Under the pieces are notes generated by a model. The model did no database searches. It was not told the DNA's origin and worked only from the letters and a program-made list of their open reading frames with translations. Below are positions 35,061-61,694 of a stretch of 64,000 bases of DNA, piece by piece. The position numbers and the translations under genes were made by a program. The DNA is taken from positions 310,001-374,000 of the forward strand of contig NZ_JACHDY010000002.1 of assembly GCF_014201315.1 (NCBI RefSeq), in the 5' to 3' direction. Within the stretch, counting starts at the first letter, position 1. Every line of letters starts with the position of its first letter. This DNA comes from Edaphobacter lichenicola. GTDB taxonomy: Bacteria; Acidobacteriota; Terriglobia; Terriglobales; Acidobacteriaceae.

Positions 35061-36038
35061 ATGGACCCACTCTCAGATGTCTTGTCGCTGCTCAAACCTC
35101 AGAGTTATTCGGCGGGCGGCTTTCCGGTGGATGGCGATGTGGCCATCCAGTTTCCAAAGCATCAGGGCATCAAGTGCTATGCCGTGGTCTCAGGCCAGTG
35201 CTGGCTGTCTGTGGAAGGCATCCCGGAACCCGTACTCCTTACAACAGGAGAGTGTTTCCTTTTGCCGCGTGGGCTGCCCTTCAGCCTCTCCACGAACCTG
35301 TCCCTCACGCCGGTCGACTATCGCGTGCTTCTTGAAGCGCTGAAGAACGGTGATGCCGCGGCACCTCACGAAGGAAGGGAGCACTATATCGTCGGCGGCC
35401 ACTTTGCACTTACCGGCAGTCACGCCGACATCCTGCTGAGCTCTCTGCCACCCATCGTGCACATCCGGAAAGAGTCGGATAAGGCGACGATGCGTTGGTC
35501 GCTGGAACGCATGAAGGAGGAGGTGCGCAACCCGCAGCCGGGCAGCTCTTTGATCGCGCAACAACTCGCCTACATGATGCTCGTTCAAGCTCTTCGACTG
35601 CACCTGGCAGATGGGACCACAAGGGGCGCCGGCTGGCTCTTTGCGCTGGCAGATAAACAGATGAGCGCAGCGATCACCTGCATGCACGACGATCCGGGGC
35701 ATCCATGGACACTGCAAAAACTGGCCGAGCGTGTCGGTATGTCGCGATCGATCTTTGCTCTAAGGTTCAAAGAGACGGTGGGGGCGACCCCCATGGAGTA
35801 CCTGACGCGCTGGCGCATGCTGCTGGCCGGAGACAGGCTGAAGAGTTCAGACGATTCCATCTCCGTAATCGCCTCATCGCTTGGTTACGAATCCGAAAGC
35901 GCCTTCGGTAAAGCCTTCAGGAGGACTATGGGTTGTTCGCCGCGACAACACAGCCGAGGGAGTAGCCACATGCCGCGTTCTTCAACCGCCCATGAAGCCA
36001 GCAAAGACCATCAGATCGAACTGACTGCGGGGCGATAG
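35061..36038 (+). CDS. AraC family transcriptional regulator
   Basis: A 325-residue regulator. Residues 1-190 form a cupin-type ligand domain (YAVVSGQCWLSVEG, GECFLLPRGLPFSL), and residues ~205-305 hold the paired helix-turn-helix of AraC proteins (WTLQKLAERVGMSRSIFALRFKETVG and ISVIASSLGYESESAFGKAFRRTMG). CGGAGG is four bases before the ATG. The likely target is the divergent SDR gene through sites in 34934-35060. Ligand unknown. Confidence 0.92.
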   Translation: MDPLSDVLSLLKPQSYSAGGFPVDGDVAIQFPKHQGIKCYAVVSGQCWLSVEGIPEPVLLTTGECFLLPRGLPFSLSTNLSLTPVDYRVLLEALKNGDAAAPHEGREHYIVGGHFALTGSHADILLSSLPPIVHIRKESDKATMRWSLERMKEEVRNPQPGSSLIAQQLAYMMLVQALRLHLADGTTRGAGWLFALADKQMSAAITCMHDDPGHPWTLQKLAERVGMSRSIFALRFKETVGATPMEYLTRWRMLLAGDRLKSSDDSISVIASSLGYESESAFGKAFRRTMGCSPRQHSRGSSHMPRSSTAHEASKDHQIELTAGR

Positions 36039-43714: not shown

Positions 43715-43798
43715 CAATTCGCTCCCTCTCTTATCACTGCCAGGCCTATCGCATAAAGTGCCTAAACCGTCCCGCTGTTCATGACTCGGACGTCTTAG

Positions 43799-46416: not shown

Positions 46417-47490
46417 ATGAATAGCAACTCTAAAACTGCCGGCATCAAAGACATCGCACAGGCCCTCGGCATCTCGATCGGCACAGTAGATCGGGCACTC
46501 CATGAACGAACTGGCGTAAGCCCGAAGACCAAAGCACGCGTTCTGCAGATAGCCGAGCAGCTGGGCTACAAACCCAATCTTGCGGCACAGGCATTGAAGC
46601 TCAATCGAAGAATCGAAATTGCAGCCGTTCTTCCAAAACAGATCTCCCACTTTTTCGACCCACTGCGAGCCGGGATACGGGCTGCCGCCGAGGCAACTGT
46701 AGGCTTGCATGTAAAAGTCACTTTTTATGAGTACCAGCGGCTCGGCCAGGGCGATGTCGAACTGCTGGAGGCAAGATTGAAGGACAAATACGACGGCATT
46801 ATCTTCACGCCAGGCAATCCGAGAAAACTTGATCCAGTCATTCGTCGCCTGACCGCGCACGGCACGGCGATGCTTTGCGTTGCCAGCGATGCACCTGGCA
46901 GTGACCGCATTGGCCTGGTCTCCGCACACGCCTATACCAGCGGTGCGTTGGCGGCGGAGCTCCTCGCGCACAAGCTCTATCGCAAGACGAACGTCGCAAC
47001 TATCACCGGAGAACTCACCACGCTCGACCACGCCGAAAAGCTTAGAGGCTTCGCAGCCACGCTTGCCATGATCGCTCCCCATCTCAGCTTGCTCCCCGCA
47101 GTGGAATCTCATGAACGCCCAAAGGAAGCTTACCGACAGACTCTCACGCTGCTCCACGGCGACTCCAAACCACAAGGCCTGTACATAAGCACAGCAAACA
47201 GTATCCCAGTCCTCCAGGCTCTCGAAGAAGAGGGCATGCTTGGAAAGATTCAGGTAGTAACAACCGACCTCTTTCAGGAGTTGGTGCCGCTGATCGAAAC
47301 CGGCAAAATTCTTGCGACCCTCTACCAGCGGCCATTCACACAAGGAAAGGTCGCGTTTGAGAGCCTCATCACGCATCTGCTCGAAGACAAGAAGACCTCT
47401 CCGATGATTCGTCTCGCACCGCATATTATCTTCCGCAGCAACCTCCCGCTTTTTACGGACCGCTTGGATGATCTACCAGACTCAGGGTGA
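46417..47490 (+). CDS. LacI family transcriptional regulator
   Basis: A 357-residue repressor. The N-terminal helix-turn-helix and hinge are clear (IKDIAQALGISIGTVDRALHER, VSPKTKARVLQIAEQLGYKPN... hinge helix AAQALKLN), followed by a periplasmic-binding-protein-like sugar sensor (IEIAAVLPKQISHFFDPLRAGIRAA). It is embedded between glycosidase genes and divergent from GH95, so it most likely controls this locus in response to a sugar released from the glycan. It is the obvious candidate to bind the paired operators near 53.3, 58.6 and 61.6 kb. Confidence 0.93.
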   Translation: MNSNSKTAGIKDIAQALGISIGTVDRALHERTGVSPKTKARVLQIAEQLGYKPNLAAQALKLNRRIEIAAVLPKQISHFFDPLRAGIRAAAEATVGLHVKVTFYEYQRLGQGDVELLEARLKDKYDGIIFTPGNPRKLDPVIRRLTAHGTAMLCVASDAPGSDRIGLVSAHAYTSGALAAELLAHKLYRKTNVATITGELTTLDHAEKLRGFAATLAMIAPHLSLLPAVESHERPKEAYRQTLTLLHGDSKPQGLYISTANSIPVLQALEEEGMLGKIQVVTTDLFQELVPLIETGKILATLYQRPFTQGKVAFESLITHLLEDKKTSPMIRLAPHIIFRSNLPLFTDRLDDLPDSG

Positions 47491-47524: not shown

Positions 47525-49543
47525 CTAGTTCCCATTCCCTTCACGCTGAGGAACAAAACGGATCGCGCATCCACCCCCCTTGGCCAGGTGAAGCACTAAC
47601 TCTTCATCTTTCCGGACGGTCTGTCTCTTGATCTCTACGTTTTTGGGATGATCTCCTGCATCCGCCGCATCCTGATAGATCTCCGCAGTGTACCGGCCTG
47701 CCCCAAGAAAGTTCAGCGAGACGCGTAAGTCGCGCGGAGTCCAGTTGGTAATACTTCCCAGATACCATTCCTCCCCGTGACTGCGTGCAATTGTCACGAA
47801 CTCCCCGGGCTCTCCGCTGAGAACATGCATCGAGTCCCATTGGGTGGGGACATCGCGAATAAACTTGAACGCTGGTTGATGCGCATAGGCCAGCGGACTA
47901 TCAGACACCATCTGGAATGGAGTTTGAAAGACAACGTAAAGCGCCAACTGCTGTGCTCGCGTCCCCATCACCATGGGACTTTGATCGCGGCCAACGAAAT
48001 CGTTCTCGGTGACGTTGTCAAAACCGCCCGGAGTGTAGTCCAACGGCCCCGCCACCATGCGCGTGAATGGAAAGACGGTACGGTCGACCGGACTATCTCG
48101 TCGCGCGACCTTGTTGTTTTCCATCCCTAAAACCGCTTCATAGCTGAGCACATTTGGGTACGTACGCTCGATACCCCAGGGCTTGCTGGCTCCGTGAAAG
48201 TCCACCATCAGGTGGTGTTCTGCCGCTTCCCGAGCAACATCGTAATAAAATTTGATCCCGTCCTGATCGTCCCGATTGATGAAATCGATCTTCACGCCTG
48301 CGACGCCCCACTTTTCAAACAGAGGAAAGGCATCCTTCATCTGGTTCATCACCGAAGTGGAGTAGAGCCATATCCAGACCTTGACATTCTTCGTGCTGGC
48401 ATAGCGAATCAGCTCCGGCACATCTACATTGCCGCGCATCTTTGTAATGTCACGTACATCCGCCCAGCCAGCATCGAGCAGCATATAGGGAAACCCGGAT
48501 TGTGCGGCGAAATCCACGTAGTACTCCATGTTCTTCGTGGTGTACTCCGCTTTTCCGTCAGGCCCCAGGTCTCCGGCCCACCAGTTCCATGAAGCCTTTC
48601 CGGGATGAATCCAGCTCGTATCCTGGACGCGATTCGGAGAATTCAGATCCGAGATAATGTTGGACTCCATAAGCTTGCCCGGTTCGTCCGCAACCAGTAG
48701 AACTCGCCACGCCGAGTGATGCGGCAGAGTTCCCGTCAGGGCAAGATTGGGGTCCTCGAATCGCGGCGAAAGCTTCGAGATGAATAGATGACCAGCCCAG
48801 TTGCCCGATGGGTTGGTGACGTACATGGCGGAATTTCCTTCGAGGTCCGCCTCGGTAAGCGTCATCCATGCTGTACCGGGAGAATGCATCAGCAATGGCA
48901 AACCAATCAGAAAACTACTCGAAACCCCTCCCTGATTACTGAAAGCTGTTATAGGCAGCTTCACGTATTCGCTCTCGTAACTGCTTCGATAATTGGGAAG
49001 CGCCAACGCCCAGGTTGTAGCATCTGTGCTAATGCGAAACTCCGTATCCTCCTGCTTCAAACGAAGTTCTTTAATCGCATCCTGCTCGGGTAAGACATAA
49101 CGAAAAGCGATTCCATCGTTGTAGGCGCGCGCCTCAATCTCGAGCGAACGTTTCGGTTCGTTGCCCTCGATAACACGTACAACCACGCTGTTGTACTGAT
49201 CATGAACACTTCCGACCTTACCCGCTATCAGGCTATAGGCGTCGCTACCCCGCCCTGGAGTACTCGCAGCGATTTGTACATTGCTGCCCAGCGCAGGCTG
49301 GTCGCCTAGTTCAAGCGCAAGCGCGGATTGATCGAGCAATGGTCTTCCGCGAAAAGAAACCGAGTAAACCAATTTACCCGCTGCGCCATTGGATTCTTTC
49401 TCCGCAACGGTGGCGAACTGCATGACAAGCCGTTCATCAGGAGACTGCAACGTAACAGGCCCCGACTGCGCGATACCCTCCGAAACACCAGTTACTACTA
49501 ATAAAGCTGACACAACGATCAGACTGCTCAAAACCAAACGCAT
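47525..49543 (-). CDS. Glycoside hydrolase family 97, probable retaining alpha-galactosidase type
   Basis: A 672-residue exported enzyme: signal peptide ending VSEGIAQ, N-terminal beta-sandwich (VTLQSPDERLVMQFATVAE), and a barrel with WAGDLG, YYVDFAAQSGFPYMLLDAGW, VAGVKIDFINRDDQD and LMVDFHGASKPWG. In GH97 the retaining alpha-galactosidases keep a nucleophile Asp at the KxDF position, while the inverting SusB-type glucosidases have Gly; here Asp is present. It therefore probably cleaves alpha-galactosides. Its start is 34 bases from the LacI stop on the other side, and its own upstream region follows the receptor terminator. Confidence 0.92.
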   Translation of the reverse strand: MRLVLSSLIVVSALLVVTGVSEGIAQSGPVTLQSPDERLVMQFATVAEKESNGAAGKLVYSVSFRGRPLLDQSALALELGDQPALGSNVQIAASTPGRGSDAYSLIAGKVGSVHDQYNSVVVRVIEGNEPKRSLEIEARAYNDGIAFRYVLPEQDAIKELRLKQEDTEFRISTDATTWALALPNYRSSYESEYVKLPITAFSNQGGVSSSFLIGLPLLMHSPGTAWMTLTEADLEGNSAMYVTNPSGNWAGHLFISKLSPRFEDPNLALTGTLPHHSAWRVLLVADEPGKLMESNIISDLNSPNRVQDTSWIHPGKASWNWWAGDLGPDGKAEYTTKNMEYYVDFAAQSGFPYMLLDAGWADVRDITKMRGNVDVPELIRYASTKNVKVWIWLYSTSVMNQMKDAFPLFEKWGVAGVKIDFINRDDQDGIKFYYDVAREAAEHHLMVDFHGASKPWGIERTYPNVLSYEAVLGMENNKVARRDSPVDRTVFPFTRMVAGPLDYTPGGFDNVTENDFVGRDQSPMVMGTRAQQLALYVVFQTPFQMVSDSPLAYAHQPAFKFIRDVPTQWDSMHVLSGEPGEFVTIARSHGEEWYLGSITNWTPRDLRVSLNFLGAGRYTAEIYQDAADAGDHPKNVEIKRQTVRKDEELVLHLAKGGGCAIRFVPQREGNGN

Positions 49544-49692: not shown

Positions 49693-52600
49693 TTAGAAAG
49701 CGTATCTCAGTGATAGCTGGAAGAACCGCGCATCCGGCGTATTGTTCTGGAACGTCTTCGGACCGTTGATCAGCCCTCCACTCGCAGTGTTGTCGTGAAT
49801 TGCCGGATTGGCAAGAGTTGGATGGTTGAGAACGTTGAATCCGTCAGCGCGGAACTGGAGAAACTGCTCGTGGAATGTCGTGAAGTTTTTGAAGATCGAC
49901 ATATTCACTCCGTAGTAGCCAGGACCGTAGATCTGATTGGATCGTCCACCGAGATACTGGATCGCTGTCGCGATATCCGTTACTGGTGACGTAATCAAGT
50001 TGCCAGACAGCGGATTGGCAAATGAGCACGGGTTGTAATAGTGTTCACGAGTTCTGGTTTGGGTGGGGCAGCCCGGACCGCCGCCCGGTGCAAAGGGATC
50101 GTTGATTGCGATGGCACGCCTGTCGCCCGCCCCTGAGGGCCCGTTGTTGCTCGGATTGACCGTGAAAGGAGTTCCACTCTGAGCTACCCAGGTTAGGCTG
50201 CTTGACCATCCGCCTGCGGCCAGATCGAGCAGCCTCGAGTGATTCAAGTAGGTTCGCCCGAGCCCAAAGGGCAGAGCGTAGTTGCCATTCAACGTGAATC
50301 GGTTGCGAACATCGTAGACCGAGTTGGTGTATTCATCGATGACTGGAATAATGGCTAACTGCCGATCACCTATTGCCGTCGAGAGACCGCCCGCAGAACT
50401 CGTGTCATCCAATGCGTGAGCCCACGTATAGGTCGCCAGGAAGCTCAACCCATGCGAGACACGCTTCTCGGCTTTAGCCTGCAGCGAGTTGTACGTGCTT
50501 ACACCGCCGTAATGAATCGTTCCGATTCCTCCGAGATCCGGGAACGGTTGCAAGGACTGCGTTCCAGTTCCCGACGGATACAGCGCACGAATCGTATTTG
50601 GATCGTAGTAGGTCCCGAGATGACGCACGACATTACCTACATAGCTGATAGTGCTCGACAGGTTGGACGACCACTGATGCTGGAAGGACAAGTTGTAGTT
50701 CTGGGTGTAGGGTGTCTTGGTATTGCCGTCGGTCGCATGAAACCCAGGGTCATTGACAGCATTCAGCAATCCATTGGCTAGGCCACCAGCCAGACCGGTC
50801 TCAAGAGTAATTCCATTCGAAGGGCAATTCCCCAGAGAACAGCTCACCGGATTGGTATTCACCTGAGCCCTGAAAGGAAACTGATCACCAAGATTATTGC
50901 CTCCATTGCTCTCCAGGCCACCATAGAAGATGCCATAACCCGCTCGAATCACCGTCTGCGAATCCAACTGATACGCCAGGCCTATGCGCGGAGCGAAGTT
51001 TGTCAACTGAGTTGAGACAAGGCGCTCGTTATTCACATACTTGATAGTTACATTGTCCTTCGCCAAAATGGACGGGAACAAAGTGCCGAGAGGAACTGTA
51101 TTCTGAATACTCCTTGGCAACTCCAACGCGCCTGTGCCGGCTCCGTTTGCCAGCGGGGGACCGGGAATAAAGTTTTCCTGACGTCCTGAGTTTTCCTTAT
51201 ACGGCTGGTAGTAGTCGTACCGCACTCCTAGATTGAGCGTAAGCCGGGTGGAAATCTTCCAGTCATCCTGAGCGTACACGGAGTCATACCACCGGGCATC
51301 ATTGACGTTTGGAGCAGTCGAGATTGCCGAAGTGTTGACCTGATCTGCAAGAAAGTCCGCGATGCCGGAACCGGTAGTAAAGGTTGATGAACTATTAACC
51401 GCGGGGTCACTGGTGTAGAGCCCCGTGAAGTAATAGTTCCCCAGAGAAGAAGGTGCATACCGATAGAAGTTTCGAACCGATTGAAACGCCACACCGAACT
51501 TCAGGGAATGGTTCCCCACTGTCTTGGTTACGTTATCTAGGATCTGATAAACATTCTGGGTCTCGTTCGATGTGCCCTGTGAGCCGAAGTTGCTGACTCC
51601 TCCCCCTGACTGCGGAGTGGCATAAACCTGAAACAGTGGCAGACCGCCTTCGTTAGGAGAAAACGGAATACCGCCTAAACCAAGCGTCGGAGCAAGGTCG
51701 ACATTTGCATTTGGCTGAAGGAAGGACGACCTGCCCGCGCTGAAGCTGAAACGAAACTCATTGGCGAGTGTAGGCGTAAAGAAATGAGTCTCACTTCCAA
51801 CAAAGCTCTGGTACAGATTGATGTCGTGCTCTCCTCCGTATCCAGTGCCATCAAGAGGATTGCCAAGCGGAAGGCCATTGACCGCGATCTGATGCACATA
51901 GCTATAACGCGCATACGCTTGATCCTGGGCGGTGATGTTCCAGTCCACGCGATGATCGAACTGAACGGTATTGTTATGGGTTGGAGTATTTACCACGTAG
52001 TTCTGGTAGGTCTTCCCGCCATTCGTATTAGGCTGCGGAAACAGACTAAGTAGATTCTGAGCGACTTTGTTGATCTGGCCTGGGCAAAAGACATTGTTTT
52101 GACCGTTGCAGGACAACGTGTTGGCCGCCCCCCCCCCAGAGTTAGGTTGATAGAGCTGAACCACCTGTCCGTTATTCAAACTCGGATTGAGCAGTTCGGA
52201 GAAATTTCCCTGCCGTATCAATGGCGTGGGCACGGTATACGTACCTGGATTACCGTATGCGATGCGGTTAGCCTCTACATCGCCGAAGTAGAAAAGTTTG
52301 TCACGAATAATTGGAAACCCGAGCGTTCCTCCAAACTGGTTTTCGTGATACGGAGGATTGGTCAGCGCATTCCATGCCTTTGCATCCAGGCTCGTATTGC
52401 GAACATACTCCCACAGGCTGCCATGAATCTTGTTGGTTCCGGATTTGATACTTGCCTGCAATACAGCGCCGGCCGAGTGTCCAAACTCCGCACTGAAGTT
52501 GCTGGTCTGGATACTGAACTCCGACAACGCGTCGGGAGGAGGACGCACGACGTAGCTCGAACCGTTGAGAAAGTCGACGAGATTGGTGTTATTGTCTACG

Positions 52601-53217
52601 CCGTCCAGAATGAAGTTGTTCTGCGACGTACGCTGTCCATTAGCAACGAAGTCTCCTGTGCCACTGCCGCGCGTGTTTCCAAAGGGCGGTGCGACTCCGG
52701 CGGTCAGCTGTGCAATATAGACAAAATTGCGTCCATTGAGAGGCGTAGTGTTGATGGTATCGGTGCTGATCACCTGTCCTACCGAACTGGTTTGGGTCTC
52801 TAGCAGCGGCGCCGCCTCCGTGACGGTCACTGTATCCGATACGGAGCCTGGCTTGAGATCGAAGACGATATTCAATCTTTGCTGGGCGTCCAGGTGGAGA
52901 TTCTCGCGCATGGTTGTCTCGAAGCCTTTCGCAGTGACAACCATCTTGTAGTTGCCGATCTTCAACGGTGAAAACACGTAGAAGCCGCTACCGTTCGAAG
53001 TTCCTTGCAGCACCAGACCCGTATCGACGTTCGTCACAGTGACTGCGGCACCCGGGACTATCGCCCCGCTGCTGTCCTGCACAACCCCCGTTATAGCGCC
53101 CTGGTCGACCTGCGCGACTGCACTCTGGGTTATCATCCACAACCCCAACAAGAACGCAAAGAAGAGCGAATAGAACCTGGCTCCTTCATAACCTCGTATA
53201 AATCGACTCTTTGTCAT
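49693..53217 (-). CDS. Oar-like TonB-dependent receptor of the sugar locus
   Basis: An 1174-residue outer-membrane receptor: signal segment ending ITQSAVAQ, carboxypeptidase-regulatory-like domain (GAITGVVQDSSGAIVPGAAVTVTN), plug with TPLNGRNFVYIAQLTAGV and ILDGVDNNTN, and a barrel ending FFQLSLRYAF with terminal Phe. No SusD-like partner is present, as usual for Acidobacteria. It probably transports oligosaccharides into the periplasm for the locus glycosidases. The ATG at 53217 has GAGGG seven bases upstream. The coding strand carries ten consecutive G (52128-52137) within SGGGAAN. Its promoter carries two operators (see 53329 and 53441). Confidence 0.93.
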   Translation of the reverse strand: MTKSRFIRGYEGARFYSLFFAFLLGLWMITQSAVAQVDQGAITGVVQDSSGAIVPGAAVTVTNVDTGLVLQGTSNGSGFYVFSPLKIGNYKMVVTAKGFETTMRENLHLDAQQRLNIVFDLKPGSVSDTVTVTEAAPLLETQTSSVGQVISTDTINTTPLNGRNFVYIAQLTAGVAPPFGNTRGSGTGDFVANGQRTSQNNFILDGVDNNTNLVDFLNGSSYVVRPPPDALSEFSIQTSNFSAEFGHSAGAVLQASIKSGTNKIHGSLWEYVRNTSLDAKAWNALTNPPYHENQFGGTLGFPIIRDKLFYFGDVEANRIAYGNPGTYTVPTPLIRQGNFSELLNPSLNNGQVVQLYQPNSGGGAANTLSCNGQNNVFCPGQINKVAQNLLSLFPQPNTNGGKTYQNYVVNTPTHNNTVQFDHRVDWNITAQDQAYARYSYVHQIAVNGLPLGNPLDGTGYGGEHDINLYQSFVGSETHFFTPTLANEFRFSFSAGRSSFLQPNANVDLAPTLGLGGIPFSPNEGGLPLFQVYATPQSGGGVSNFGSQGTSNETQNVYQILDNVTKTVGNHSLKFGVAFQSVRNFYRYAPSSLGNYYFTGLYTSDPAVNSSSTFTTGSGIADFLADQVNTSAISTAPNVNDARWYDSVYAQDDWKISTRLTLNLGVRYDYYQPYKENSGRQENFIPGPPLANGAGTGALELPRSIQNTVPLGTLFPSILAKDNVTIKYVNNERLVSTQLTNFAPRIGLAYQLDSQTVIRAGYGIFYGGLESNGGNNLGDQFPFRAQVNTNPVSCSLGNCPSNGITLETGLAGGLANGLLNAVNDPGFHATDGNTKTPYTQNYNLSFQHQWSSNLSSTISYVGNVVRHLGTYYDPNTIRALYPSGTGTQSLQPFPDLGGIGTIHYGGVSTYNSLQAKAEKRVSHGLSFLATYTWAHALDDTSSAGGLSTAIGDRQLAIIPVIDEYTNSVYDVRNRFTLNGNYALPFGLGRTYLNHSRLLDLAAGGWSSSLTWVAQSGTPFTVNPSNNGPSGAGDRRAIAINDPFAPGGGPGCPTQTRTREHYYNPCSFANPLSGNLITSPVTDIATAIQYLGGRSNQIYGPGYYGVNMSIFKNFTTFHEQFLQFRADGFNVLNHPTLANPAIHDNTASGGLINGPKTFQNNTPDARFFQLSLRYAF

Positions 53218-53328
53218 TTCAGTGCCCTCTCTAACTATCGGTTTCTCAGCTGTTACCACTACAGGCCTCGCATAATCGAAAAATAATAACCAGCATCAGT
53301 TGCCCAACTCCAGATGGTGATTCGTAAT

Positions 53329-53346
53329 GTGTACGTTACCGGAAAA
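53329..53346 (-). promoter_or_regulatory. Operator O1 of the receptor gene
   Basis: GTGTACGTTACCGGAAAA on the plus strand, placed directly after the -10 box so that a bound repressor would cover the transcription start. Same motif and position as at 58557 and 61646. Confidence 0.75.
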
Positions 53347-53347
53347 C

Positions 53348-53377
53348 ACGGTATGCCTCTATAATAGAGACTGTCAA
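53348..53377 (-). promoter_or_regulatory. Promoter of the receptor gene
   Basis: Perfect TTGACA (53372-53377 read leftward), 18-base spacer, TACCGT -10 (53348-53353). Confidence 0.7.
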
Positions 53378-53440
53378 GTATAATTATTAACTCTCTTTTT
53401 CTAGTTGTAACTACCCTGCGTGGATGCTTCCCAAGAATTC

Positions 53441-53458
53441 GTGTACGTTCCCATAAAT
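53441..53458 (-). promoter_or_regulatory. Upstream operator O2 of the receptor gene
   Basis: GTGTACGTTCCCATAAAT, 112 bases upstream of O1 in the direction of transcription. It matches O1 at most positions and could support looping. Confidence 0.6.
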
Positions 53459-53599
53459 GAGCCAATCTAATGAGCTTCCGCAACGGGTGCGTTGGAAATA
53501 GTTGCATGCCATGGGCTTAGCTGGCGCTGAATCCGCAACAGTGATTTTTCGCTGGCGGAGTTCGTCGCGAGCATTCGATCTCGATAAGGAATGGCCCCG

Positions 53600-55033
53600 T
53601 CACTTCACTGAAAGTACTTGAGCTTCAATCTCTTCAAGAGTTCGCCCTTTCGTCTCAGGCACGAAGAAGAAGACGAAAGCCACACCCAGCACGCAGATGA
53701 CTCCATACCCTAAGAAAGTACCTGAGCTGCCGAGCGCATGATTAATCAGAGGAAAGGTATAAGTCAGCACAAAGGATGCTATCCAGAGGGCGCTCACAGC
53801 GATAGAGACCGCCTGGGAGCGAACTCGGTTCGGAAAAATCTCGGAGATCAGAACCCAGGTAACAGGGGCCAGAGTGAGGGCGTAACACGCGATCGCACTC
53901 AGCGTCAGCACCAGAACTGCGCTGCCATGCCAGCCTGCACGATAAGCCATTCCAGAGAGTAAGTGAGAGATACCTATACCAATACACCCAAACAGCATCA
54001 TCGGACGGCGTCCGACGCGATCGACGATCAGCATTGCCATGACGGTGAAGATAAGATTGATGGCTCCCGTAATCACGATGTTGAGGAGGATGTCGTTTTC
54101 CCCATACCCCGCGCTGCGATAAACCTCGGCTGCGTAGTTGAAGAGGATGTTGATGCCTGTCCATTGCTGCAGCACGGCCAGAGCCGCTCCTATCAGCACT
54201 ATCTTCCGAACACCCGGTAACCAGAGTTCTCTCCATGAGGTTTTCAGGGCCGTTTCCAGTTGCAGTGTTTTTTTAATGTTCGCGCCCTCGCTCAACGCAT
54301 AGGAGAGCCCTCCAACCTTGGTCAAGACTTTATAGGCAGAAGCTTCATCGCCTTTGGCCAACAGCCAACGCGGACTCTCGGGAATGAAGAGGGACATGAC
54401 CGTAAACATAATTGCCGGCACCATAACGGCGCAGAACATCCAACGCCATCCATACTGGACGTTCCACGTCTGTAGAAATACTGCATGACTTATCCGATCC
54501 GGAATCGGACGAGCAATCTGCCAGTTTGCAATCTGCGCTAATAAGATACCGACCACAATGGCAAACTGATTGAGACTGACCAGACGGCCTCGAACGGGCG
54601 CCGGACTGATCTCCGCAATGTAGAGAGGGGAGATATTCGAGCTAAGTCCAATCGCTGTGCCACCGATAATGCGCCAAAAGATGAACGCCGAAAAGGAATA
54701 GGTCCAGCCAGTCAGCCCTGAGGAGATCGCAAAGAGAATCGCAGAGACAAGAAGTACCCGCCTGCGCCCGAAGCGATCTCCCAGGTATCCAGCCGCGAAG
54801 GATCCCACGAAACAGCCAACCAGAGCGCAGCTGTTGGCCCATCCTACGAGTTGCTCAGAATTGAGTTGGAAATAAGCCTCATAGAATTGCCGAGCTCCGC
54901 CGATCACCACCCAGTCATAACCAAACAGCAGCCCTCCCATCGCCGCCACCAGCGTAATAGCCCAAAGGTAAACGGTGTTTTGAACCTCGATCGGCGAAAC
55001 GTCCGTACCAGGACGAACAGGAAGAGTTTGCAT
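53600..55033 (-). CDS. MFS sugar porter (XylE/GalP-like)
   Basis: A 477-residue inner-membrane symporter with twelve predicted helices. Sugar-porter marks are all present: GYLGDRFGRRRVLL, the PESPRWLLAKG motif after helix 6, VDRVGRRPMML, and the C-terminal VPETKGRTLEEIE. It likely imports galactose or another monosaccharide released by the locus enzymes with protons. The gene starts three bases after the stop of the DUF5107-TPR gene, so they are one operon under the promoter at 58578. Confidence 0.93.
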   Translation of the reverse strand: MQTLPVRPGTDVSPIEVQNTVYLWAITLVAAMGGLLFGYDWVVIGGARQFYEAYFQLNSEQLVGWANSCALVGCFVGSFAAGYLGDRFGRRRVLLVSAILFAISSGLTGWTYSFSAFIFWRIIGGTAIGLSSNISPLYIAEISPAPVRGRLVSLNQFAIVVGILLAQIANWQIARPIPDRISHAVFLQTWNVQYGWRWMFCAVMVPAIMFTVMSLFIPESPRWLLAKGDEASAYKVLTKVGGLSYALSEGANIKKTLQLETALKTSWRELWLPGVRKIVLIGAALAVLQQWTGINILFNYAAEVYRSAGYGENDILLNIVITGAINLIFTVMAMLIVDRVGRRPMMLFGCIGIGISHLLSGMAYRAGWHGSAVLVLTLSAIACYALTLAPVTWVLISEIFPNRVRSQAVSIAVSALWIASFVLTYTFPLINHALGSSGTFLGYGVICVLGVAFVFFFVPETKGRTLEEIEAQVLSVK

Positions 55034-55036
55034 AGG

Positions 55037-58000
55037 TCAGCTCACCACCGTTTCAACTGCTGCCAACAGATCGGCGGCCCCTGCGTGGTTTCTATCGAGC
55101 CGACATACCTCGTTCAGCAGAATGACCGCAGGGCCTATCTGGCCCAGACCCAGTAATGCCTGGGCGCGCAAAAACTTCGCCGAGATCTCTTGCCGCTGAA
55201 CCAGGTTCTCTTCGAAGAGGAGCATCGCAGGCAGCGAGGTAGCGAAGTAGTCGATCTTAGGGGTTTGCCGCTCCAAGTCGAAAGAGTAGTCGTATATCTC
55301 CTGAAAAATTCGCATCGCCTCTTCGTTCCGTCCCAGACTGGCGAGAGATTGAGCGCTCCAATAGGTGTTATCCGAAATGGAATAGACCTGCATCTGTTGA
55401 AAGTCACCGCGATGTTGTGCAGCACGCTCCCAATGCAGCGCAGCATTGGCATGATCACAATTTGCCGCAAACGCGGTGCCCAACCAGTAGTCGATCATGC
55501 TTAGATTCATAAGAAGATGTTTTGCTTCGCTTATGCTCTCCGGCGGATTCCATGCGGCTTGAAATAACCGAATCGCCGTCGGTCCATCCTTTTCCGTTAG
55601 GGCCTTGAATCCAAGCAGCAGATTGGATCGAACATACTGTGACAGCACCAGGCCTTCCCCGCCCTCCCATGGCTGAAATCTACGAGACTGCAATATCTTC
55701 AATGAATCCGCAGGCCGGCCTACCTGGTTATAGAGGGTGGCCAGTTCGACTGATAGATCGTCACGCAATGCGACCAAGTCCAACGACTCTTCTAACACCG
55801 AGAGCCGCTGTGAAGCAGGTTCACCAGTGCGCTTCAGCAATTGGTCCTGTTCATAAAGTATCCGACCATCCTCTGGGGAAAGCACGCGAGCACGCGCATA
55901 GGCTTCACGCGCTTTCTTCTCGTCCCCATCGACGTTGTAATATGCGAAGCCAAGATTGCGCCAGATAGTTGCGAACTGTGAATCAAGTTCCCCCGCACGT
56001 TCCCACAGTTTAATGGCTTCTTCGTGGCGTCGCCTGTCGTACAGCAGATTACCGAGATAGTAGGGAGCGCGCATATCCAGTGAATCCCGCTCCATCGCGG
56101 CTTCAAGTAGGAGCAACTCCTCTAACCTGCTGGGGAATACATAGTCCACGTTCGCAGCAGAAGCTAACTGGTAAGTCTTTTCACTTTCATCTTCCCTACC
56201 AAGAAGCCCGTAGACGTATGCTAGAGCGTAAAGCATCATGGCCGACGAGCCAGCTTCCACTTCTTCCGTACCGGCTGAGAAGACCTTCAAAGCGTCGTCC
56301 AGAAGGTTGCAACGCAAAAAATCGAGACCAAGGTCTAGCCTCTGCTGACCATTCTGGGGAATACTGCCGGTATCGAGATATCTACTCCAGTTATCAAGAG
56401 GATCAAGATCGAGAGTCGCCTTGATCAATGTCTTTGCCTCCGCGATTCTGCCGAAGCGCTGCAAGACGACAGCCTTGAGATTACGCGCGTTCAGATTGTC
56501 CGCCTCTGCCCTCAGAGAACGCTCAATATGATCGAACGCACGTGGCCACTCCCGACGGCCGCAGTCAATCTCCGCCAGTCGATGATAGGCGGGGCCGCGC
56601 CAAGCGGCGTTCCATGTAGATTTATAGAAAGCCTCATAAGCTTCATCGATTTTGCCCTGATAGCGCAGTGTCAATCCGAGGTTGTAGTGTGGCTCACCAT
56701 CATAAGGATTTGGATTGCGCGCCGTAAGTCTCGCGATAGCAGTTCGCAGATATCGTTCGGCGATCGAGAACTCGCCTCGTCTAAGATACCAGCGTCCCAG
56801 TGTGTGATTTGATCGGCTATCTCCTGCATCTCTACGAATAGCTTCCAGCCAATAATCTTCAGGAGTTCTCGTCGCATGGCGATACTGCTCAAGGTGCAGC
56901 CCAATCAGGTACAACTCATCGCTAGTTAAAATGGTCTCTGGCAAACCTGGCTCAGTGGCCACCTCAGGAGCGGATGCCGCAACAATCTCAGTCGGGACGT
57001 ATCGAAGAATCACGTCTTCTTCTAATTCGTCCCCTTCTATCAATAAGAGTTCGAACAGACCAGAGTCATCACCGACAGATAACTCCATGTGGAGCGGCGT
57101 CTCAGGCTGCAACCTACCCCGCCATTCCGCGACCTTCTTTCCTCCATTTTTTAGACAGACAAGAGCGTTGAGGATAGAGCGAGTGACCAGGAGATGTACA
57201 ACGACTTTACCTCTTGCCCTTTCAAGTCGAACTGCAGCGTCAAGATTCGCCAGATCCGGCACACCAATTTCGCGAATGGGATACCAATATTGACTAAAGC
57301 TCTTCGTCTCTCCTGGTGCGAGGAAAGAGAAATCGGGCTGATTATCCGTGTAAACTCCCGCCATCAACTCGATGTAAGGCCCGTCTGACTCAGTAAGACT
57401 TCGGTCCCAGGCGTATCCAAAGTCGTGATTCCCCCACGTCCACTGTTTCTTCCCAGGGGCGATATGGTGATTGGCGACATGCACCATGCCGGCATTGACG
57501 GCATGATCGTACCCTCCAGCAAAATCTCCTTTAGAGTTCGCAACCATATAGCTGGTTGGAACCGGAATGTTCGAGTACCAACTCAGATCATTGGGTGGGT
57601 AAGACCCATCCGGCACAAACTTCGACGGCTTTTCCTCCTCTGGAACCCCACTCACGGCACGCTGTCCATAGTCGACTCCGTAATAGCATCCTTGACTGAG
57701 AGGAAACTCCGTCACCGCGCGTTTGGCGTGGTCGGCAACGAATCGCACGTCCGTCGGAAAGAAAGACTGATACTTCTCATGGACACGCGTCGCAACATTC
57801 GCCCACCACAGAAAAGTCTGTGTATCCTGCGTGCGATTGTAGAGGCGTACTTTGAGCTCGAGATAAGCTTTACCAGGACGCAGGCAAAGACCATGCATGC
57901 CTTTCATCCTCACCATCGGATCATGATCGCTGCACCAGATCGTGACCGATCCATCCGGATCCCGCTCAATTGCCACTTCAACCGGCATAAAGGTCGCAGG

Positions 58001-58465
58001 ACGATGGTGCTGCGGCCAGTTGAACTCCACTCCTCCCGACACCCACGGTCCCGCGAGTCCAACCAGAGCGGGCTTGATTACATTCTGTCGATAGAAGAAG
58101 TCGTAGCCGTTGAGCTTGTCGTACCCGACATGAATACGGCCCCCAATCTCCGGCAAAACCATCAGTCGAACGTACTCATTTTCGATGTGTACGGCTCTCC
58201 ACTCATGGAGCCGGGGCTCCGTATCGACGCGGTCGATCACTGGCAACGGATACACCCGACCGCTGCTTCCCTGGTAGACGCGTTTCTCGAGGAACATCGG
58301 ATGAGAATCTGGCGCGGCGGCCATGTAAGTTCGCATGACGACCGGCTCTTCCCATACTTTCACCGCCCCTAGTTCAGAGGCCGGAGCAGGTGGAAGTTGC
58401 AGCTTCTGAAACTCCGCTCCGTTGGAAGAAGCTTCGTTCCCATTCGAGTCTTTTTTCTGCGTCAT
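55037..58465 (-). CDS. DUF5107 and tetratricopeptide-repeat protein
   Basis: A 1142-residue protein without signal peptide, probably cytoplasmic. Residues ~30-400 form a DUF5107 domain, a galactose-mutarotase-like beta-sandwich (VRLMVLPEIGGRIHVGYDKLNGYDFFYRQ, GGVEFNWPQHHRPATFMPV, WTWGNHDFGYAWDRSL). The remaining ~650 residues are helical tetratricopeptide repeats (HYNLGLTLRYQGKIDEAYEAF, YYLGNLLYDRRRHEEAIKLWERAGELD). The family is often found with sugar-degradation genes, but its activity is not established. Coupled to the sugar porter downstream, it may process or sense imported sugar. The start at 58465 is set by the operator/promoter position and the local ribosome site. Confidence 0.9.
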   Translation of the reverse strand: MTQKKDSNGNEASSNGAEFQKLQLPPAPASELGAVKVWEEPVVMRTYMAAAPDSHPMFLEKRVYQGSSGRVYPLPVIDRVDTEPRLHEWRAVHIENEYVRLMVLPEIGGRIHVGYDKLNGYDFFYRQNVIKPALVGLAGPWVSGGVEFNWPQHHRPATFMPVEVAIERDPDGSVTIWCSDHDPMVRMKGMHGLCLRPGKAYLELKVRLYNRTQDTQTFLWWANVATRVHEKYQSFFPTDVRFVADHAKRAVTEFPLSQGCYYGVDYGQRAVSGVPEEEKPSKFVPDGSYPPNDLSWYSNIPVPTSYMVANSKGDFAGGYDHAVNAGMVHVANHHIAPGKKQWTWGNHDFGYAWDRSLTESDGPYIELMAGVYTDNQPDFSFLAPGETKSFSQYWYPIREIGVPDLANLDAAVRLERARGKVVVHLLVTRSILNALVCLKNGGKKVAEWRGRLQPETPLHMELSVGDDSGLFELLLIEGDELEEDVILRYVPTEIVAASAPEVATEPGLPETILTSDELYLIGLHLEQYRHATRTPEDYWLEAIRRDAGDSRSNHTLGRWYLRRGEFSIAERYLRTAIARLTARNPNPYDGEPHYNLGLTLRYQGKIDEAYEAFYKSTWNAAWRGPAYHRLAEIDCGRREWPRAFDHIERSLRAEADNLNARNLKAVVLQRFGRIAEAKTLIKATLDLDPLDNWSRYLDTGSIPQNGQQRLDLGLDFLRCNLLDDALKVFSAGTEEVEAGSSAMMLYALAYVYGLLGREDESEKTYQLASAANVDYVFPSRLEELLLLEAAMERDSLDMRAPYYLGNLLYDRRRHEEAIKLWERAGELDSQFATIWRNLGFAYYNVDGDEKKAREAYARARVLSPEDGRILYEQDQLLKRTGEPASQRLSVLEESLDLVALRDDLSVELATLYNQVGRPADSLKILQSRRFQPWEGGEGLVLSQYVRSNLLLGFKALTEKDGPTAIRLFQAAWNPPESISEAKHLLMNLSMIDYWLGTAFAANCDHANAALHWERAAQHRGDFQQMQVYSISDNTYWSAQSLASLGRNEEAMRIFQEIYDYSFDLERQTPKIDYFATSLPAMLLFEENLVQRQEISAKFLRAQALLGLGQIGPAVILLNEVCRLDRNHAGAADLLAAVETVVS

Positions 58466-58556
58466 CTCTCGTTCCCCGACAAAGTCACGATTGCGCAAAC
58501 GAAGGATAGGTAGAAACCTCTAAGATCGATAAAGGCATTTCACTCCTTCACCCTTC

Positions 58557-58574
58557 GTGCACGTTACCGTAAAT
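58557..58574 (-). promoter_or_regulatory. Operator O1 of the DUF5107/sugar-porter operon
   Basis: GTGCACGTTACCGTAAAT, four bases after the -10 box, 92 bases before the start codon. Confidence 0.75.
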
Positions 58575-58577
58575 GAA

Positions 58578-58606
58578 ACTGTAGGCACGGATCAGGGCAT
58601 TGTCAA
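58578..58606 (-). promoter_or_regulatory. Promoter of the DUF5107/sugar-porter operon
   Basis: Perfect TTGACA (58601-58606 read leftward), 17-base spacer, TACAGT -10 (58578-58583). Confidence 0.75.
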
Positions 58607-58661
58607 GAAAATGCGGAATTTGGTTATTTAACCCACAGCTTGCTTCACAATATAACCTACC

Positions 58662-58679
58662 GTGGTCGTACACGTAAAT
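58662..58679 (-). promoter_or_regulatory. Upstream operator O2 of the DUF5107 operon
   Basis: GTGGTCGTACACGTAAAT, weaker match, 105 bases upstream of O1, which is close to ten helical turns. Confidence 0.45.
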
Positions 58680-58953
58680 CATTGCTTTGATTCCAATTGA
58701 CTTCCATTGCACAGTAAAACTTCATTTCGGACCACCCATAGATGGCTTGCATGGCGCCTCGACCCAGGAGCCTCTGACGTGACGTCATGCTGGGATGAGC
58801 CATGCCGAAGTTTCGGACCACGGATTGTACGTGCCTGCCTCCCGCAGGAGAGGTAGGTGGGAGTGGCAGAGTCGGGAGTGGCAGCCGGGATGCTCTTAAC
58901 CGTTGCCTCTTCCCACTCTTCTAGTGACTCCAATCAATTGAAACGAAAAAACT

Positions 58954-61500
58954 CTACCGTATCTCCGAACTGCCGCCGAGGCTTCCAACATCAGCTCCAT
59001 TATTTGCGCTGAACACGAGATTCACATTGAACTGTGCGTTGTTTGAACACTTCGAAAAATCGATCGGAACCTTGATGTTGGAGTGGCCATTCGAAACAAT
59101 ATCTCCCAATTCGATCGGCAGTCGCCCGATCACTTTCGGGTAACAAGTTCCATCCCCGCTCGACTGAGTTAATGAAAAAGTATTAATCTCAGACCTGGCA
59201 GCACGGCCCTCACCGAGGTTGTTCAGCGATATCTTCCAGACGCGCAGATTCTGAGCTCCAGCCTTACCCACGATGGATGCAGACAGGTTTGCGGACTCAA
59301 CAACCGGCGCAATCGCGATTCGGTCCAACGCCGGAGCGTATCCTGTGGCATTGCCGAACTGGATCGTATTGGATCCAGCCTGCAACTGCACCGAAATTAC
59401 CGCGCTGGTAGGCAAGCTGAAGCTACTTCCATTCAGGTCGAGTTCTGTGCTGGTTCCACCGTTGACGGTCATAAAGAACGACCGCGGACCGCTCGTCAGG
59501 TAGTCGATCTCCATCAGATACGCTCCAGCCTTATCCACGATGACGTTCGGAAAGGTTACAGTGTTGCCGCTGCCCCCACCTATGTTGCCCGCCTCCGCGG
59601 CACCCGAGCAGTACTCGCAGTAGGGAGGAGTGACGGTTCCCGCCAACGTGGCGTTTTCCGCCTCATACGTAACTGAATTCGGAAGCGGAGGAGCCCCAAA
59701 TCCGCCTCCACGAATCACAATACGGTCCATATCTGGCGGATAACTCGTAGGGCTGCCAAATTGAAGGCTGTTGACTCCTGCATTCAGTGGCACTGAAACA
59801 GTGGTGCTCGACGGAAGAAAGAAGCTTCCTCCGCCAACATTCAGTGTCGTAAGAGGACCGTTGTTCACCTTGTAGATCAGAGACCTCGGCCCCTGAGTCA
59901 ACGAATCTATCTGCATCTGATACACGCCGCTTCGACGTACCGTGACATTGTTGAAGGTCACGGTGTTATTCGCACCCACAGCCAGTCCACCGACCTTCTC
60001 TCCACCCGAACACCCCGCACAGGCCGCGATCACGGCTGTGCCGCTCAACGTAGCCGCCTCTGCCTCATAGCTCTGCGCTTCGGCAGGTTGGACGCGTCCT
60101 TGCCCCTTGACCTTCAAAAGCCGTACACCATGACCCAGAATCGTTGTGCTGAAGGCTTTGCCATAACTACCCAGTTCAATGTGATTCCACAGGTCACGAA
60201 CGCTCGGCGCATTCGCGAAGCCCAGACTACTCCACGGCACCGTCACACGGGATGGAAATGCATTCAGATTGAACACGGCCACATAGTAGCTCCCGTCACC
60301 CAGGTCGGAGACCCACACCGGAGTATCTCCGCCCAGTGCCTGCTTCGCCGGATGGCCGGACTGATTGATAGCGAGCACCTCATCATTGGTCAAGATCTGT
60401 TTGCCGAAGTCGTCCAGACTTGTCAGATCTCCGCCCAGGTACATCGGCGCATTCGCCATCGCCCAAAGCGTAGTGATCGATTGCCGTTCTTCCGAGCTCA
60501 GGCCAGAGGTGGTATTGTTCATCACCTCAAGCGAATCCAGGTCATTCCAGCCGACCGCGGCACTTGCATCGTTCTGCCATCCCACAAGATCGTAGAACCG
60601 CCACGAAGCCATGGCCCAATTCGTAATCGTCGCGCAGTTGCCTTCACAGTCAATGTCGCCTTCGATCCTGCGAGCATTCGCGTACTGCTGCCACACGCTG
60701 AGATAGTCCTTATCCAGGGCCCACGAGATCGTAAACCAGATCGGACGGCCACTCTGCGCAATTGCCTTTCCCCAAGCCGCCACGTCCGCACGATTGTCTA
60801 TCGACAGGTCGTAGCTGTACGACCCCGGAGTAACCGCATCGAGTTTGATCGCGTCGATGCCCCAGGAAGCGAACAGATCCACTACCGAATTGATGTACTC
60901 CTGCGCGCCCGGCTTGGTGAAGTCGATCTTGTAGTGATAAGGAGAGGTTCCAGGAGCACCAAAGGCATTCCCCGCCTGGTACGGAACCGTCAGGATGTCC
61001 TGGATATGGTACGGAGTGCCAAGGATCGGAGAGTTGGCAACAACGGCCGGATATTCCACCCCTGGAATCCAGTAAATTCCTGCCTTCTGTCCGTTCTCAT
61101 GAATGTGCGCCACCAGAGCAGTGATATCGGGGAAGGTCGTCAGATTTGGAGTGGGACGACCGTACGCGTCAAAGCTGCCTTGCCAGCCAGAGTCCATATT
61201 GATGTAGTTGAAGCCATGAGCCTGCAATCCGGAAGATAGCAGCGCGTCCGACTGAGCGGCCATATTTGCCTGCGTCAGGAAGTTGCTCGAGATCGTCTGT
61301 TGGCTAAAGCTGCTCCAGCCGAGATAAGGCCGCTCTGCAATTCCGGGTGTCTGCGCTTCCACCGAAACAACGGCCACGAAGAGTGAAGCGGCAGCAAAAA
61401 ACAATGCAAGAAGGAAGCGATGAAGGTTTCGTAGAGGCTGATCCTCGACCTGCCTCTGGAACGTCCGGGGTTCGGCGAAGCAGAACTGTTTCTCTGTCAT
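58954..61500 (-). CDS. Alpha-galactosidase, glycoside hydrolase family 27 with carbohydrate-binding modules
   Basis: An 848-residue exported enzyme. A long N-terminus ends in a signal segment (FLLALFFAAASLFVAVVSVEAQ). The GH27 barrel follows: RPYLGWSSFS, INMDSGWQG, nucleophile Asp in IDAIKLDAVTPG, acid/base Asp in VGWNDLDSLEV, then a beta-sandwich cap. Residues ~460-600 and ~610-735 are two related CBM35/CBM6-like modules (each SYEAEAATLSG / TYEAENATLAG, ending LQFGSPTSYPPDMDRI / IQFGNATGYAPALDRI). The last ~110 residues are a CARDB-like adhesion domain. It should remove alpha-galactose from a bound polysaccharide. Own promoter at 61665. Confidence 0.94.
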   Translation of the reverse strand: MTEKQFCFAEPRTFQRQVEDQPLRNLHRFLLALFFAAASLFVAVVSVEAQTPGIAERPYLGWSSFSQQTISSNFLTQANMAAQSDALLSSGLQAHGFNYINMDSGWQGSFDAYGRPTPNLTTFPDITALVAHIHENGQKAGIYWIPGVEYPAVVANSPILGTPYHIQDILTVPYQAGNAFGAPGTSPYHYKIDFTKPGAQEYINSVVDLFASWGIDAIKLDAVTPGSYSYDLSIDNRADVAAWGKAIAQSGRPIWFTISWALDKDYLSVWQQYANARRIEGDIDCEGNCATITNWAMASWRFYDLVGWQNDASAAVGWNDLDSLEVMNNTTSGLSSEERQSITTLWAMANAPMYLGGDLTSLDDFGKQILTNDEVLAINQSGHPAKQALGGDTPVWVSDLGDGSYYVAVFNLNAFPSRVTVPWSSLGFANAPSVRDLWNHIELGSYGKAFSTTILGHGVRLLKVKGQGRVQPAEAQSYEAEAATLSGTAVIAACAGCSGGEKVGGLAVGANNTVTFNNVTVRRSGVYQMQIDSLTQGPRSLIYKVNNGPLTTLNVGGGSFFLPSSTTVSVPLNAGVNSLQFGSPTSYPPDMDRIVIRGGGFGAPPLPNSVTYEAENATLAGTVTPPYCEYCSGAAEAGNIGGGSGNTVTFPNVIVDKAGAYLMEIDYLTSGPRSFFMTVNGGTSTELDLNGSSFSLPTSAVISVQLQAGSNTIQFGNATGYAPALDRIAIAPVVESANLSASIVGKAGAQNLRVWKISLNNLGEGRAARSEINTFSLTQSSGDGTCYPKVIGRLPIELGDIVSNGHSNIKVPIDFSKCSNNAQFNVNLVFSANNGADVGSLGGSSEIR

Positions 61501-61586
61501 GAAACCTCTCCTGTCTACTCAAATAAAGATCTGGCTCTTTGAAGAAGGCAATTCATCTACCCACCGGTGTAAGAAGTACTTGCAGT

Positions 61587-61603
61587 GTGTAGGTACACGA
61601 AAT
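61587..61603 (-). promoter_or_regulatory. Second operator of the GH27 gene, in the leader
   Basis: GTGTAGGTACACGAAAT, containing a perfect GTGTA/TACAC palindrome, 59 bases downstream of O1 and about 90 bases before the start codon. Confidence 0.45.
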
Positions 61604-61645
61604 AAAGGTCACGCACTTGTACAAATTTGGATGAACAGAAATAAC

Positions 61646-61663
61646 GTGTTCGTTACCGCAAAA
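61646..61663 (-). promoter_or_regulatory. Operator O1 of the GH27 gene
   Basis: GTGTTCGTTACCGCAAAA, immediately after the -10 region. It also lies 89 bases upstream of the divergent epimerase-like gene and could affect both. Confidence 0.72.
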
Positions 61664-61664
61664 A

Positions 61665-61694
61665 ACAATGTCACAGAAGAAACCACACTGTCAA
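61665..61694 (-). promoter_or_regulatory. Promoter of the GH27 gene
   Basis: Perfect TTGACA (61689-61694 read leftward), 17-18-base spacer, weak -10 of the CATTGT/ACATTG type (61665-61671). Confidence 0.6.

Follow-up and report, generated by a model that had tools for sequence, protein, structure and literature searches.

A LacI-type regulator as the very probable repressor of three promoters with a half-symmetric operator in a glycan locus of Edaphobacter lichenicola

Three promoters in one glycan locus of Edaphobacter lichenicola, those of a TonB-type receptor, a DUF5107-sugar porter operon and a GH27-like gene, share one promoter-operator design, which raises the question of whether they obey a single regulator and, if so, which one. 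In the window, by which we mean the whole stretch of 64,000 nucleotides analysed, they read in gene sense TTGACA-N18-TACCGT-N6-CGGTAACGTACAC (receptor), TTGACA-N17-TACAGT-N8-CGGTAACGTGCAC (DUF5107-porter) and TTGACA-N18-CATTGT-N6-CGGTAACGAACAC (GH27). An earlier note on this DNA had described a perfect TTGACA, a spacer of 17-18 bp and an operator behind the -10 at each promoter, and all of these elements are found where it placed them, on the minus strand (Table 1). From sequence comparison, we propose that the three sites are very probably operators of one local regulon, in which the LacI-type protein encoded at 46417-47490 would repress receptor-GH97, DUF5107-porter and GH27 until a sugar releases it.

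The locus comprises genes for a GH36 alpha-galactosidase, GH95, LacI, GH97, receptor, porter, DUF5107-TPR protein and GH27-like enzyme, and by inference serves alpha-galactoside utilisation; the GH97 product scores 453 bits against the NCBIfam model of a retaining alpha-galactosidase, below the cut-off of 800. The protein encoded at 46417 carries an N-terminal LacI helix-turn-helix (PF00356, 47.8 bits, cut-off 27) and a periplasmic-binding-protein-like sensor (Peripla_BP_4, PF13407, 137.5 bits, cut-off 35.1). Its structural model (pLDDT 88) has sugar-binding proteins and LacI-family repressors as nearest solved folds, with the sensor closest to glucose-, galactose- and arabinose-binding proteins; the modelled sensor fold thus fits a galactose-like inducer without proving one. 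The recognition helix SIGTVDR recurs in nearly all LacI orthologs.

Table 1. Genes, core promoters and predicted operators of the locus in window coordinates (operator sequences in gene sense).
Feature	Position	Strand	Basis or remark
GH95 (43799-46189) and GH36 (41411-43717) genes, same glycan locus	41411-46189	-	
lacI-type regulator, 357 aa, helix-turn-helix with SIGTVDR, Peripla_BP_4 sugar sensor; proposed repressor	46417-47490	+	Pfam, co-occurrence
GH97 glycoside hydrolase, probably co-transcribed behind receptor	47525-49543	-	Pfam GH97
Outer-membrane TonB-type receptor, CarboxypepD_reg + OMP_b-brl_4; proposed target	49693-53259	-	Domain search
Receptor operator O1, CGGTAACGTACACA	53328-53341	-	34.2 bits, matrix from other genomes; conserved in relatives
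Receptor core promoter: -35 TTGACA 53372-53377, 18-bp spacer, -10 TACCGT 53348-53353	53348-53377	-	Start site predicted
Auxiliary operator O2, TGGGAACGTACACG	53440-53453	-	112 bp upstream of O1, same orientation as O1; 19.5 bits
Sugar porter family MFS transporter; proposed target operon	53600-55033	-	Domain search
DUF5107-TPR protein, first gene of porter operon	55037-58498	-	Domain search
DUF5107-porter operon operator, CGGTAACGTGCACG	58556-58569	-	25.8 bits, same matrix
DUF5107-porter core promoter: -35 TTGACA 58601-58606, 17-bp spacer, -10 TACAGT 58578-58583	58578-58606	-	
GH27-like alpha-galactosidase (Melibiase_2) with CBM35; proposed target	58954-61500	-	Domain search
GH27 operator, CGGTAACGAACACG	61645-61658	-	29.9 bits, same matrix
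GH27 core promoter: -35 TTGACA 61689-61694, 18-bp spacer, -10 CATTGT 61665-61670	61665-61694	-	

Comparative data support the assignment to LacI. Within the genus, TTGACAN{24,38}GGTAACGNNCA yields 28 matches in 20 of 62 genomes, and 26 of the matches have a LacI ortholog no further than about 16 kb away; of the other two, that in G018 sits next to GH97 on a contig of 9.4 kb that lacks LacI, and that in G024 is unrelated. The composite site occurs in 15 of 17 genus genomes with a close LacI ortholog (E<=1e-100, a cut-off chosen after seeing the table) versus 2 of 38 others (Fisher p 1.4e-9, ignoring relatedness); at the search's own threshold of 1e-40 the counts are 15/20 versus 2/35. G033, which has a close LacI, carries the operator before DUF5107 without an exact TTGACA. 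In the locus of G028 (L080), likewise with a close LacI, no site exceeds 14 bits; the LacI, GH97 and DUF5107 matches of this genome are split, either by decay of the whole unit or by indel errors. Gene order varies among the loci, yet the sites still precede DUF5107-porter, receptor, GH97, GH27 or GH36, and the regulator gene lies next to its proposed targets, as in a local regulon.

The same association extends across the family. A LacI protein search of named genomes returned 49 loci, nine of them with close orthologs of 62-88% identity (seven isolates, namely four Granulicella, Edaphobacter aggregans, Terracidiphilus gabretensis and Acidicapsa dinghuensis, and two MAGs) and 40 with distant ones. 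The operator core is present at target promoters of all nine close loci, the TTGACA not always being exact; no such operator was found at the LacI genes of the 40 distant loci, which are partial or align over long stretches at less than 31% identity. A pattern open in the left half-site and at two positions of the right one, TTGACAN{26,33}CGNNNACGTNNAC, gives 132 matches in 89 of 299 family genomes (reversed control, 78), and 65 of the 132, in 36 genomes, are of regulon type by our own choice of half-site letters, led by CGGTAACGTACAC (36) and CGTTAACGTACAC (11). A close LacI ortholog (E<=1e-96) occurs in 27 of the 28 site-bearing genomes, which are all those outside the genus, versus 4 of 28 hand-picked site-less genomes (p 2e-10, ignoring relatedness), the latter count rising to 6/28 at the search's 1e-50. 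Two of the four site-less genomes with LacI (L240, L247) have, close to lacI, operators that escape the composite pattern, and none was found in the 4-kb stretches of the other two. On the same contig and within 16 kb of a LacI ortholog lie 44 of the 49 regulon-type sites of the 28 genomes; five are unlinked. G315 holds a full promoter-operator (G315:C23:482121) on another contig than its LacI locus, possibly an unlinked regulon member.

Part of this co-occurrence is co-inheritance of one locus. It is also conceivable, although improbable, that another transcription factor, encoded elsewhere, binds the sites and that lacI is a mere neighbour: one of the five unlinked family sites lies in an 85%-complete genome where no LacI ortholog was found, and the matrix scan of the window places no operator before lacI, so that autoregulation is not indicated here. 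In Ravcheev et al. 2014 (PMC4052901), lacI autoregulation is not universal (72%). Against a regulator from elsewhere stand the joint occurrence of site and lacI across the family and across reshuffled loci, the presence of sites flanking lacI, directly beside it, in several relatives, and the LacI-type character of a site with a central CG and a G at both outer positions. The AraC-type gene at 35061-36038 was considered as regulator and rejected, as it has no ortholog in the other stretches fetched from relatives. In many related species the switch sequence is found next to the same LacI-type gene, and we therefore regard it as very probably the on/off element by which this regulator controls the use of galactose-containing plant sugars; the co-occurrence counts in genus and family support the proposal of the earlier note that one regulon stands probably under the LacI at 46417. 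Speaking against it, the matrix scan of the window found no operator before GH95-GH36 in this genome.

How LacI would act is suggested by the position of the site. One module, TTGACA-N17/18-TANN(G/T)T-N4-9-CGGTAAC·GTACAC (the dot marks the centre), returns in reshuffled loci at the promoters of receptor, DUF5107-porter, GH97, GH27 and GH36. When the gap was left free at 20-60 bp, the distance from the -35 (TTG(A/T)CA) to the operator was 28-33 bp in 41 of 43 matches, a count that we prefer to the SD of 1.1 bp, which came from a pre-set range of 28-36 bp; the distance from the operator to the predicted start codon has an SD of 36 bp in 38 promoters, with start codons extrapolated from protein alignments. 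As the site keeps its distance to the -35 box but not to the start codon, an RNA element is unlikely. The fixed distance behind the -35 marks the site as a promoter element that overlies the region where transcription is expected to start, as a blocking operator would. Among 45 distinct promoters with a perfect -35 (48 before duplicates and the CGATAAC variant were dropped), 44 have 4-9 bp between the -10 and the start of the operator and one has 16 bp, which agrees with the repressor-type position over the predicted start site that had been claimed for the window promoters. A variant arrangement, TTGACA-x-CGGTAACGATAACG, whose operator falls between the -35 and the -10, precedes GH97 and another receptor in G029 and G052 (L071, L075-L076).

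The -10 hexamers had been called weak. TACCGT, TACAGT and CATTGT are indeed present, but nothing sets them apart as a special feature of these promoters. In the 45 distinct promoters, position 5 is G in 34 and T in 11, with hexamers chosen by a TA...T rule that favours positions 1, 2 and 6. Strings of the form TTGACA-N17/18-TANNNT are rare in this genome (38 places, control 20), and G is also commonest at position 5 in the 36 others (16/36). Because the genome's other promoter-like strings lean likewise, we take this preference mostly as a lineage habit and reject a special -10.

The receptor promoter carries a second operator, O2, a fourth and weaker site that emerged from the matrix scan of the window and was absent from the earlier list. 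Of 16 promoters of O1 type (15 of them receptor promoters, the other that of G018), 7 have a further site upstream of O1 at 112-125 bp and oriented like it, at 112 bp in the window, 121 in G035, 122 in G018, 123 in G058, 124 in G060 and 125 bp in both G014 and G002. Elsewhere the second site is placed differently, 273 bp (G039) or 377 bp (G048) upstream of O1 or 33 bp downstream of it (L122 and L124), and G011 has a weak one at 143. The matrix scan found no upstream second site above 11 bits at the O1-type promoters of G036, G001, L117 and L120.

Taken together, these positions suggest the following switch. In the absence of sugar, the LacI protein would sit on CGGTAAC·GTACAC; as the operator begins a few bases behind the -10, it would cover the predicted start site, and bound LacI would block transcription of receptor(-GH97), DUF5107-sugar porter and GH27. 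At the receptor promoter, O2 probably strengthens repression by looping. A sugar freed by the alpha-galactosidases of the locus, most likely galactose or a close relative, would then bind the Peripla_BP_4 domain and release LacI from the operator. A LacI that binds these sites but acts mainly as an activator, or together with a second regulator (e.g. catabolite control), would be compatible with the upstream location of O2, where activators or loops act, and with operators within the -35/-10 spacer in G029, G052 and G030; we consider it very unlikely, since the strongest site lies just downstream of the -10, behind a perfect -35, in all but one of the distinct promoters, an arrangement that suits blocking.

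The sites also occur more often than chance would give. The 18-mer of the earlier note, with at most one mismatch, has four matches in the 4.88-Mb genome (the three window sites exactly and one stray with one mismatch; control 0), and the composite TTGACAN{26,36}CGGTAACG has three, all in this locus (control 0). Both patterns are derived from the three window sites themselves, and a test with independent data therefore carries more weight. For this, a matrix was built from 50 distinct sites of other genomes, all with GGTAACG...AC by selection; excluded were the window sites and the CGATAAC/CGACAAC variants, as well as any site that fell within a gene or had no target nearby. In the window it ranks the three sites on top (34.2, 29.9 and 25.8 bits), followed by 53440-53453 at 19.5 and the next at 10.6 bits; in 20 Markov sequences of 64 kb the top score on one strand ranged from 3.4 to 13.6. 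That the repeats are recent copies of one promoter, or chance, rather than selected binding sites is hardly credible, for although each window promoter has the same architecture, spacer and flank sequences are unrelated between promoters while -35 and operator stay fixed, the sites are conserved across genera, and a matrix trained on other genomes contradicts this reading.

Further regulon members in this genome were sought and rejected: SGGTAACGNNNAC has 17 matches versus 38 in the control, with TTGACA in place only at the three window sites, and the next best genome match after the window sites scores 19.0 bits (C2:287939) and lacks TTGACA. The exact 18-mer occurs in 5 of 150 genomes, the own genome included, and is too strict for relatives.

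The operator itself is half-symmetric. Its consensus is CGGTAAC·GTACAC, and the proposed fit of its core to the central CG of LacI-family operators holds in all three window sites; in the 45-promoter set the central CG is fixed by the selecting pattern and is likewise contained in the matrix and in the right-half selection, so that its universality there is by construction. Full palindromic symmetry, assessed over the 45 distinct promoters, is absent. Symmetry holds at pairs 1, 2 and 6 in 45, 44 and 45 promoters, largely set by the selecting pattern; at pair 7 it is seen in 24, and at pairs 3, 4 and 5 it drops to 4, 10 and 5. If matches are chosen by the -35 and the right half, with the left half free, 36 of 36 have a left half opening with CG (positions 7 and 6; control pattern, 1 match). 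A G thus stands at position 6 of both half-sites, the right-hand one being part of the selection, and would face a conserved LacI Arg, R26, which is invariant in a 29-row alignment. Both halves share a frame of outer CG and inner AC·GT and differ in the middle three bases (CG-GTA-AC versus CG-TGT-AC).

Symmetric versions are scarce. A census of 983 kb of fetched loci counts GGTAACGTACAC 37 times and GGTAACGTAAAC 11 times, and the palindromes GTGTACGTACAC once and GGTAACGTTACC and GTTTACGTAAAC not at all. The perfect palindrome CGTGTACGTACAC was rejected as the ideal site, as it is not enriched (11 matches in 10 of 150 family genomes versus 21 control matches); one perfect copy is found in a promoter of the second G036 locus. 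Counted like for like in the same 983 kb, the half-sites occur 43 times in the usual order versus twice reversed, once in a real promoter (GH27 of G002) and once as the main G035 receptor site read from the opposite strand. One tentative and rather doubtful reading is that this LacI clade recognises a built-in mixed operator of fixed polarity, with a variable half CG(GT/TT/TG)AAC facing the promoter and a constant half GTACAC downstream. If so, the two dimer heads would make different contacts, direction would matter for repression or looping, and such a dependence on direction would be unusual in a LacI operator.

In E. coli lac, operator O1 lies over the start site, has unequal half-sites with an extra base near the centre, and is joined by an auxiliary operator at a distance. 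The locus described here resembles it in the predicted operator over the start, the unequal halves and the distant auxiliary site, but differs in its even spacing, in an asymmetry that falls on specificity positions and in the TVDR recognition helix. TonB-receptor sugar loci of Xanthomonas are a possible further parallel; a paper on plant-sugar uptake (PMC1790865) mentions both LacI and TonB-dependent. PMC2978694 discusses the asymmetric lac O1, assigns specificity to the two bases inside G6, which is faced by the Arg of TVSR, notes that mixed sites exist, and gives a recognition code covering the TVSR helix. As described by Ravcheev et al. (PMC4052901), LacI sites are mostly even palindromes with a central CG; the local sugar regulons treated there likewise have the regulator beside sugar-uptake targets and an operator with central CG, but their motifs are palindromes, highly conserved inverted repeats, whereas half-site positions 3 to 5 differ systematically here. 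The main text of that paper does not contain the word Acidobacteria, and the full-text literature (open-licence papers) yielded no described LacI operator for Acidobacteria or Granulicella, nor the operator letters. Systems of this kind are known; the novelty lies in the well-supported regulon and its depth within the family, in the conserved half-symmetry and in the second operator of the receptor promoter, which, like the incomplete palindrome, refines the earlier note. The analysis provides a testable regulon spread across the Acidobacteriaceae, which are soil degraders. It also links alpha-galactoside use with a DUF5107-TPR protein whose function is unknown, and yields tens of natural operators of LacI proteins whose TVDR helix lies outside the published TVSR code.

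Related designs appear at greater distance. A LacI from another family, 39% identical and carrying the same SIGTVDR helix, accompanies TTGACA-N17-TAGTAT-N5-CGTGTAC·GTTCACG before a TonB-type receptor and lends the proposal support from a distance. At distant TVDR loci, CGNNNACGTNNNCG occurs 7 times in 39 kb versus two backgrounds with 24 occurrences in 312 kb, regulon sites among them, and 6 in 61 kb, which is suggestive only. Between a distant lacI and a TonB-type receptor, L040:1004-1051 forms a perfect 48-bp inverted repeat centred on CGGTAACGTTACCG, which could be real or an assembly fold-back. Finally, G059, G202, G261, G329 and G398 show the same promoter design with another half-site, CGTAAACGTTTAC or CGTAAACGTAAAC, and probably represent other LacI regulons of the same build.
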